This document shows positions 18,648 to 23,226 of a stretch of DNA of 64,000 bases, piece after piece; the stretch's first letter is position 1, and every line of letters begins with the position of its first letter. The notes under the pieces are model-generated. The model worked only from the letters and a program-made list of their open reading frames with translations. It was not told the origin of the DNA and did not search any database. The DNA comes from Geodermatophilus siccatus. GTDB lineage: Bacteria > Actinomycetota > Actinomycetes > Mycobacteriales > Geodermatophilaceae. Made by a program: the position numbers and the translations under genes. The stretch lies in assembly GCF_900103785.1 (NCBI RefSeq), contig NZ_FNHE01000004.1, positions 310,001 to 374,000 of the forward strand. Direction: 5' to 3'.

Positions 18648-19637
18648 TCAGGAGGCGGCGGGGTGGCCGTCGTCCCCGACGTACCAGGTGCGCAGGCGGG
18701 CGAACCCCTCGTCCAGGCTGACCCCGGGCCGCCAGCCCAGCGCAGCCCGCGTGCGCCGCTGGTCGAACCAGTGGGCGGTCGCGAGCTGCTCGGCCAGGAA
18801 GCGGGTCAGCGGGGGGACCGACCGCCGGCGCGTGACCGCCCAGACCGCCTCCGCGGCAGCGCCGGCCGCCCAGGCCGCACCGAACGGCACCCGGCCGCGC
18901 GGCCCCGGGACCCCGGCCGCCCGGCACAGCCGGCCGAGCACCTCGGCGACCGGGCGGGGCTCCCCGTTCGAGACGACCAGCGCCTCCCCGTGCACCGGTC
19001 CGCACGCGTCCACGGCGGCGACCAGGGCCGCTGCGGCGTTGTCGACGTAGGTCGTGTCGATGAGCGCCGCGCCCGACCCGATCACCGGCAGCCGCCCGGC
19101 GCGCGCCCGCTCGACGATGCGGCCGACGAGCTGGGTGTCGCCGGGGCCCCACACCAGGTGCGGGCGGACGGCCAGCACGGCCAGCGCGGGGGAGTCCGCG
19201 GCCAGCGCGTCGAGCTCGGCCACGGCCTTGGAGCGGGAGTAGCGGCCGCGGGCACGTGCGGGGTCGGCGGGGCCGGCACCGACCCCGGCGAGCGCCGTCC
19301 CGGCGTGCGCCACCGACGGGGACGACACGTGCACCAGCCGGCCGACGCCCGCGGCCCGGCAGGCGTCGAGGACGGCCCGGGTGCCGACGATGTTCGCGTG
19401 CGCGTACTCGGCCCACGGACCGGTGACGTCGACCTTCGCGGCCAGGTGCAGCACGGCGTCCTGCCCCCGCGCGGCCCGCCCGACGACGCCCGGGTCGGCG
19501 ACGTCCCCCAGCACCTCCGCGCAGGGCAGGCCGGAGGGACGGCGCTGCAGCACCGTCACCTCGTCCCCGCGCCCGAGCAGCCCGGTGGCCGTGGCCCGGC
19601 CGAGCATCCCGCTCGCCCCGGTGACCAGCACCCTCAC
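18648..19637 (-). CDS. oleD: OleD, 2-alkyl-3-oxoalkanoate reductase (NAD(P)-dependent epimerase/dehydratase family)
   Basis: Reduces the OleA product (2-alkyl-3-ketoacid) to the beta-hydroxy acid in head-to-head olefin biosynthesis. The 329 residues form an extended SDR: LVTGASGMLGRATATGLL at the start, HLAAKVD, a VSSPSV strand, catalytic YSRSK near residue 155, and RPHLVWGPGDT, as in 3-beta-hydroxysteroid dehydrogenase/OleD proteins. GTG 19637 overlaps the oleBC stop by GTGA, so the genes are coupled. Assignment to OleD rests mainly on the neighbouring oleA and oleBC; alone it would be called a generic epimerase. Confidence 0.88.
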   Translation of the reverse strand: MRVLVTGASGMLGRATATGLLGRGDEVTVLQRRPSGLPCAEVLGDVADPGVVGRAARGQDAVLHLAAKVDVTGPWAEYAHANIVGTRAVLDACRAAGVGRLVHVSSPSVAHAGTALAGVGAGPADPARARGRYSRSKAVAELDALAADSPALAVLAVRPHLVWGPGDTQLVGRIVERARAGRLPVIGSGAALIDTTYVDNAAAALVAAVDACGPVHGEALVVSNGEPRPVAEVLGRLCRAAGVPGPRGRVPFGAAWAAGAAAEAVWAVTRRRSVPPLTRFLAEQLATAHWFDQRRTRAALGWRPGVSLDEGFARLRTWYVGDDGHPAAS

Positions 19638-22204: not shown

Positions 22205-23226
22205 CAGGCGATCTCGAGGCAGGAGGCGTTGAGGCCCGAGCCGATCCCCATGAGCAGCACCCGGTCGCCGCCGACGAGGGAGTCCTGCTGGCCGGCCAGC
22301 GTGAAGGGGACCGAGGCCGGGCCGAGGTTGCCCCGGGTCGGGAACGTCGTCGGCACCAGGGCGGGGTCGATCGAGAACCGGTCGCACATGGCCTTGGTGT
22401 GCACCTTGGAGACCTGGTGGACGATGTACCGGCTCATGCCGCGGGCCCAGTCGAACTCACCGGCGGCGTCCGCCCAGAGCTCCTCGGACAGGCCGAGCCC
22501 GGCCTCGAGCAGGCCCTTGAGGTCGGTCCGCATCTCGTCGTTGTCGCCCGTGCAGAGCTCGTGGTGCTCGCTGCCGGCCCGGCTCGCGGAGCCGACCAGG
22601 CGGTGCCCCTCCGGGTGCTGGTCGGCGCGCCCGAGGACCATGGCGACCGCACCCGAGCCCAGGGTCAGGGTCGCGAACTGCGCCAGCACGTCCTTGGACG
22701 TGGCGTCCGGGCGGTTCAGCCGCTCGACGGTGCGCTCCTGGACCGGCCGGGAGTCCTCGCCGTTGACCACCAGGACGTGGTCGACCATGCCGGAGTCGAT
22801 CATAGCGGCGGCCAGCTCCATGCCGTTGACGAAGCCGAGGCAGGCGTTCGTCACGTCGAAGTTCTGGCACGAGCGCGGCAGGCCCAGCGCGTGGTGCACC
22901 GCGACCGCCGTCGAGGGCTCGAGGTACCGGCGGCTCACCGACGTGTTGACCATCAGGCCGATGGAGGCCGGGTCGACGCCGCTCTCGCTGATCGCCTTGG
23001 CGCCGGCCATGGCGGCCCCGTCGACGAAGGTGACGCCGTCGGCCCACCAGCGGCGCTCCCGGATGCCGGCGAGGCGCTCGAGCAGGCCGCGCCGCAGGCC
23101 CACCCGCTGGTAGGTCCCCTCGAGCGCGTCGTCGAGGTCGTCGGAGCCGACCACCCGGGTGGCGTCCTCGGTCTGGACGGCCAGGACCGCCGTGTTCGTG
23201 AACCTGCGTGTGCTGTTGCTGCTCAT
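22201..23226 (-). CDS. oleA: OleA, thiolase-superfamily acyl-CoA head-to-head condensing enzyme
   Basis: Joins two long-chain acyl-CoAs to a 2-alkyl-3-ketoacid, the first step of long-chain olefin synthesis. The 341-residue protein looks like FabH but has OleA marks: Cys129 in [10 protein letters not shown], Glu103 in [14 protein letters not shown] (the glutamate known in Xanthomonas OleA), the [10 protein letters not shown] histidine segment, and [11 protein letters not shown] with the catalytic Asn. ATG 23226 begins a plausible N-terminus; a GGAGGA site is 14 bases away, rather far. It leads a coupled run oleA-oleBC-oleD, divergent from fabG-inhA, which makes and uses the same acyl chains. 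Confidence 0.93.

Follow-up and report, generated by a model that had tools for sequence, protein, structure and literature searches.

In the oleABCD cluster of Xanthomonas campestris, oleB and oleC are separate genes. The clusters of Micrococcales (Micrococcus, Kytococcus, Mobilicoccus, and Arthrobacter) are instead of the oleA-oleBC-oleD type, in which OleB and OleC are fused, and a survey of 2020 gave Micrococcales as the only Gram-positive order with the pathway. Olefins have been found in every lipid-tested genus with ole orthologues (PMC7158056). The oleACD β-lactone clusters (lipstatin type, Actinoplanes) share OleA, OleC, and OleD type enzymes and are without oleB (PMC7064751).

Here we describe an ole cluster of Geodermatophilus siccatus that lies in a 64,000-nucleotide stretch of DNA, hereafter the window (contig NZ_FNHE01000004.1, positions 310,001 to 374,000). 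In gene order, OleB-OleC fusion, and catalytic residues it is like the Micrococcales clusters, from which it differs in host family (Geodermatophilaceae) and upstream element. Arthrobacter and its relatives carry the same block with an OleA that is 55-57% identical to that of the window, but the OleB-OleC linker is shorter in Geodermatophilaceae (42-93 vs 48-273 nt between blast segments). X. campestris OleA is only distantly similar to the window OleA, yet the two can be aligned over their whole length and share the catalytic residues, and the four activities are expected to be alike. In contrast to the oleACD clusters, the window has an oleB that is fused and intact. The same GTDB family also contains unfused oleA-oleB-oleC-oleD clusters (L041-L044) that resemble the window in order and in the GTGA junction after oleA, but there oleB and oleC occupy separate frames and the OleA, only ∼50% identical, belongs to another clade.

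Taken as a whole, the cluster very probably encodes a self-contained head-to-head olefin pathway of the ordinary actinobacterial oleA-oleBC-oleD type. Both the kind of pathway and this type are already known; what is new is mainly the spread of the set in the family, an adjacency to fabG-inhA in this lineage only, and a conserved stress-type promoter-like signal. An earlier note on this DNA had described a complete oleA, oleB-oleC fusion, and oleD set at 18648-23226 with two 4-base overlaps, fabG-inhA divergent from it, and an isomerase-like gene, a dimethylargininase gene, and a kinase gene following oleD on the same strand. We recover the same positions, strands, and lengths, and both overlaps read GTGA (Table 1).

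Table 1. Features of the ole locus, in window coordinates
Feature	Position	Strand	Description
oleA	22201-23226	-	341 aa; X. campestris OleA structures, NF006720, four residues invariant in 142 OleA
oleBC fused gene	19634-22204	-	856 aa, GTG start; one open frame
OleB half of oleBC	~aa 1-305	-	haloalkane-dehalogenase-like β-lactone decarboxylase, predicted; Asn56, Asp122, Trp123, Asp254, His282
OleC half of oleBC	~aa 320-856	-	predicted β-lactone synthetase, ANL fold; TSGATGPAKG 485-494, YGMTE 628-632, TGD 719-721, terminal Lys833
oleD	18648-19637	-	329 aa, GTG start; predicted NAD(P)H-dependent 2-alkyl-3-oxoalkanoate reductase; GASGMLG 7-13, Ser105, Tyr133, Lys137
GTGA overlap, oleA stop/oleBC start	22201-22204	-	same junction in 40/40 family loci
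GTGA overlap, oleBC stop/oleD start	19634-19637	-	
MDMPI/DinB-like gene (TIGR03083)	17960-18610	-	37 nt after oleD; outside the pathway; on the fabG side of the old junction
Dimethylargininase gene	17141-17905	-	
Nucleoside-kinase-like gene	16395-17144	-	
fabG and inhA	23430-24922	+	divergent neighbors; outside the pathway; own upstream sequence kept
fabG-inhA-hemH	23430-26131		divergent from the ole genes
Promoter-like element GGAGT-N15-GGGTAG	23290-23315	-	GGGTA starts 69 nt upstream of the oleA start codon; resembles SigB/SigF-type promoters
Extent of the putatively relocated cassette	18650-23346		segment absent between MDMPI and fabG in the relative G048 (L204)

Active Sites and Predicted Pathway

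The OleA protein aligns end to end with the crystal structures of X. campestris OleA (E 1.9e-82), whereas FabH-type structures match at 5e-15 and weaker. When compared with the NCBIfam profiles, it passes the cut-off of NF006720 (437.7 vs 285 bits) and misses that of the FabH model (90 vs 292 bits), which settles in favor of OleA the question that the earlier note had set beforehand as decisive against its reading. The pattern EPxx[AS]x(14,18)DxxNACL, published for finding OleA (PMC7158056), is present at residue 103. The thiolase triad of Cys129, His270, and Asn300 is present as well and, with Glu103, is invariant in 142 sequences that include X. campestris OleA; Cys129 and Glu103, the two residues named previously, fall on catalytic columns of the alignments. 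A FabH-type ketosynthase that works with the divergent fabG-inhA in supplying type II fatty-acid synthesis would share the fold, the Pfam name (ACP_syn_III), and the neighbors seen here. We regard this reading as extremely improbable given the two profile scores, Glu103, and the OleA pattern, and also because oleBC or oleB-oleC, then oleD, follows OleA wherever the family contigs allowed and because the adjacency to fabG-inhA is limited to three species. That OleA passes the NF006720 cut-off and that the whole block recurs in family loci argue against a chance assembly. In a screen in E. coli, only ∼35% of OleA proteins showed activity (PMC7064751).

Profile and structure comparison divides the OleBC protein into an alpha/beta hydrolase close to the haloalkane dehalogenases and, behind it, an AMP-binding enzyme. 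The OleB pentad in Table 1, invariant in 133 sequences, comprises the five residues given for subfamily III dehalogenase-like enzymes, including X. campestris OleB (PMC10503415), and Asp122, which had been singled out for decarboxylase assays, sits on its catalytic column. The ANL-fold adenylation motifs are present in OleC and most are invariant in 129 sequences, with slight variation at Gly494 (120/129), Tyr628 (128/129), and the last Lys (128/129, with one gap). OleD is an extended SDR with a Rossmann motif, and its Ser105, Tyr133, and Lys137 are invariant in 124 sequences. The olefin models of NCBIfam are the best or nearly the best for OleC and OleD, yet both proteins stay below cut-offs that are Xanthomonas- or Shewanella-based: oxyalk_red_OleD, the best model of all for OleD, gives 323 bits vs a cut-off of 580, and OleC scores 257 vs 900 bits (NF045786) and 205 vs 850 bits (NF045785) against the olefin β-lactone synthetase models, which, to judge by their names, were built for Xanthomonas-type and Shewanella-type proteins; the low scores thus argue against those subfamilies and not against the activity. 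With the catalytic residues of OleA, OleB, OleC, and OleD invariant or nearly so, all four activities are expected.

In the proposed pathway, OleA would join two fatty acyl-CoAs in a non-decarboxylating condensation that gives a 2-alkyl-3-oxo acid, and OleD would reduce this acid to its 3-hydroxy form. ATP-dependent ring closure by the OleC half would then yield a β-lactone, from which the OleB half would release CO2; the resulting internal cis-alkene would probably reside in the membrane. The overlapping junctions suggest that oleA, oleBC, and oleD are translationally coupled. The conversion of two acyl-CoAs to a long-chain cis-olefin via a β-lactone, as first proposed for this locus, stands on intact and invariant catalytic residues. 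The same proposal had left room for a β-lactone that is kept as the end product, a lipstatin-like natural product. The known β-lactone clusters do have OleA, OleC, and OleD (PMC7064751), and OleB activity is a prediction here, but the producers, known or inferred, are without oleB (PMC7064751), whereas in the window the OleB half is complete, runs on in frame into OleC, and has an invariant pentad, and the ole block contains no P450 or glycosyltransferase gene. A retained β-lactone is very unlikely on these grounds, and we keep to the olefin as the product.

This product would most likely be a set of cis-olefins of ∼C29-C33, mostly iso-branched. The expected range follows from the usual Geodermatophilus fatty acids, iso-C15:0, iso-C16:0, C17:1, and C18:1 (PMC4119925), taken with the head-to-head rule (n + m - 1 carbons). 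In the literature, we found no olefin lipid data for Geodermatophilus.

Distribution and the OleB-OleC Fusion

OleA is found at E 1e-40 or better in 59 of 112 genomes of Geodermatophilaceae, including 24 of 26 in the genus Geodermatophilus, and the set is widespread in Geodermatophilus, Blastococcus, and Modestobacter. The window OleA is 81-87% identical to those of named Geodermatophilus and 94% identical to those of two further genus members. Of the 40 other family loci, 39 carry the complete block and one lies on a contig that ends inside oleC; oleBC is one open frame in the window and in 36 other family loci. Besides the three family genera, fused A-BC-D blocks were seen in Nocardioides, Ornithinimicrobium, Serinicoccus, and Arthrobacter and its relatives as well as in MAGs labeled Nanopelagicales, Nitriliruptoraceae, and Acidimicrobiaceae/Ilumatobacteraceae. 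This recurrence across the family and other actinobacteria bears out the view that the fusion is a known actinobacterial trait. The taxonomic range given for the pathway in Gram-positive bacteria needs correcting as well: the set is spread widely over lineages other than Micrococcales, and the statement that limits it to that order is too narrow on present genomes, although an earlier mention in the literature is possible.

Some entries in the comparison are unusual in themselves. Two MAGs titled Bifidobacterium breve (L106 and L142) carry actinobacterial ole genes with an OleA 55-58% identical to that of the window, and these organism names look wrong; L106 groups with Nanopelagicales and other MAGs. 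An Acidimicrobiales MAG (L128:4327-5349) encodes a 54% identical OleA with no oleB, oleC, or oleD match within the 12 kb examined, possibly an OleA with another role.

Separate oleB and oleC genes were found in three locus sets, namely, L041-L044 in the window's own GTDB family, L191/L192/L194/L195, and L248-L250. The OleA proteins of these unfused clusters are ∼46-51% identical to that of the window and lie on the other side of the OleA tree, and Geodermatophilaceae hold two distantly related ole lineages. In a 75-row OleA tree from which L248-L250 were left out, one branch divides fused from unfused clusters (SH-aLRT 99), and a single change between the two states is enough to explain the split, with or without the seven rows whose state is unknown. 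This gives the OleB-OleC fusion a simple history. Because the root was set by X. campestris OleA alone, the change is most naturally, though not provably, read as a gain of the fusion.

Position beside fabG-inhA

The flanks of the ole block differ among family loci except between close relatives, and DNA similarity ends at the end of oleD and within ∼0-100 nt before oleA. The site beside fabG-inhA-hemH is common only to the window and the genomes G040 and G044, the latter with ∼3 kb between, and these three form one OleA clade (SH-aLRT 99). In the relative G048 the site is empty: a match to window 17960-18649 is followed by ∼14 nt and then by a match to 23347 onwards, no ole genes lie between, and the ole set of this genome is 370 kb from the MDMPI-fabG junction. 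Ten genus members have ole and inhA on a single contig, and in these ole is 266-579 kb from inhA and on one side of it; the window, G040, and G044 have ole on the opposite side, at 2-5 kb. The empty site in G048 points to a junction of cassette and fabG region that arose in this lineage alone, and a meaningful link or co-regulation with fabG-inhA is not supported. The simplest reading is one relocation in the ancestor of the window species and its two relatives, by which the cassette would have been brought beside fabG-inhA, leaving the fabG upstream sequence whole and putting the MDMPI gene 37 nt behind oleD. To place the old ole site, the flanks of the G043 ole set were searched in the window's genome; only scattered partial matches resulted and the site was not placeable.

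The same comparison bears on the genes behind oleD, which the earlier note had thought might extend the operon. If the MDMPI-like gene, dimethylargininase, and kinase belonged to it, they would add steps to the pathway. They share the strand of the ole genes, the MDMPI start lies close behind the oleD stop, and no terminator-like site was found between oleD and MDMPI, so read-through is plausible. Nevertheless, an MDMPI-like gene and a dimethylargininase gene follow oleD only in G040 among 40 family loci, MDMPI directly adjoins fabG in G048 with no ole genes between, and the pathway misses no biochemical step when these genes are set aside. We therefore consider an extended operon very unlikely; these neighbors of oleD occur only in the closest relatives. 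A dimethylargininase gene 62% identical to that of the window also stands divergent beside oleA in a MAG of unrelated Actinomycetota (L115:6140-6898), probably by coincidence.

The identities of OleA and InhA to those of genus relatives are uncorrelated (rho 0.16), which makes an exchange of ole cassettes within the genus Geodermatophilus possible.

The GGGTA Element Upstream of oleA

The sequence GGGTA occurs within 160 nt before oleA in all 37 fused Geodermatophilaceae clusters (the window and 36 others), mostly 61-85 nt before the start; these clusters are related by descent and do not count as 37 independent events. Of random 160-nt segments drawn from these loci, 3.6% contain it, and dinucleotide shuffles gave a mean of 5.7/37 with 12 as the largest value. 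The longer motif GGNNT-N14-16-GGGTA is present in 28/37 clusters vs a shuffle mean of 0.3 (largest 3). Since the motif was first seen by eye in the same sequences, the shuffle figures are partly after the fact, and an unprejudiced ranking of 5-mers and the fabG control are fairer. In that ranking GGGTA is the most over-represented 5-mer before oleA, while many surrounding columns vary; among control upstreams, it occurs in 0/11 for fabG and 4/11 for hemH.

In M. smegmatis, SigB/SigF-type promoters have the form GTTT-N14-19-GGGTA (PMC4694148); those of Streptomyces combine GGGTA with GNNT or GTTT (PMC8346170). The window's GGAGT-N15-GGGTAG agrees with the form of such promoters, a -10 GGGTA with a -35 GNNT or GTTT at 14-19 nt, and the clusters are mostly of the form GNNT-N15-GGGTA, ∼70 bases before oleA. 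No sigma-70 promoter or terminator was found between 16300 and 23500. The resemblance to SigB/SigF stress promoters leads to the testable prediction that the cassette has its own promoter of this type. The genome has five strong matches to SigBFG-like genes, one of them over the cut-off (28911-30002, TIGR02980 297 bits), and this SigF-type gene, which has RsbW-like and RsbU/RsbW/STAS-like genes as neighbors, is in the window at a distance of ∼5.7 kb from oleA.

There is close to an even chance that the GGGTA element is the site of another regulator or is conserved only through shared descent of the cassette. In its own genome the motif shows no enrichment (two matches to GGNAT-N15-GGGTA and one to GTTT-N14-16-GGGTA, no better than the reversed control), for which reason no stress regulon can be outlined. 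As a rule the element is absent in other families of the order (GGGTA in 7/17 clusters, the motif in 3/17), which makes it a family trait; GGGTA also precedes hemH in some genomes, as given above, and no positive-control SigF promoter was identified. Against such a reading stand the rank of GGGTA as top 5-mer, its presence in every fused cluster amid many variable columns, and its absence from the fabG upstreams. We tentatively propose, at somewhat less than even odds, that the ole genes of Geodermatophilaceae form a compact cassette of mobile position with its own general-stress-type (SigB/SigF-family) promoter, and that long-chain membrane olefins are part of a stress response. If so, membrane olefins would be tied to the stress response of the desiccation- and radiation-tolerant Geodermatophilaceae. 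An intact pathway with a conserved stress-type promoter-like element outside Micrococcales also offers a route to a genetic test of long-chain olefin function.

Two further observations concern stress-type regulation. The SigF-type gene, the RsbW-like gene before it, and the divergent RsbU/RsbW/STAS-like gene make window 28911-32580 a general-stress regulatory module near the ole cluster. Most clusters of Arthrobacter, Paenarthrobacter, and Pseudarthrobacter (L118-L145) have a conserved GGGTAC ∼49-50 nt before oleA, which may be a separate stress-type promoter.
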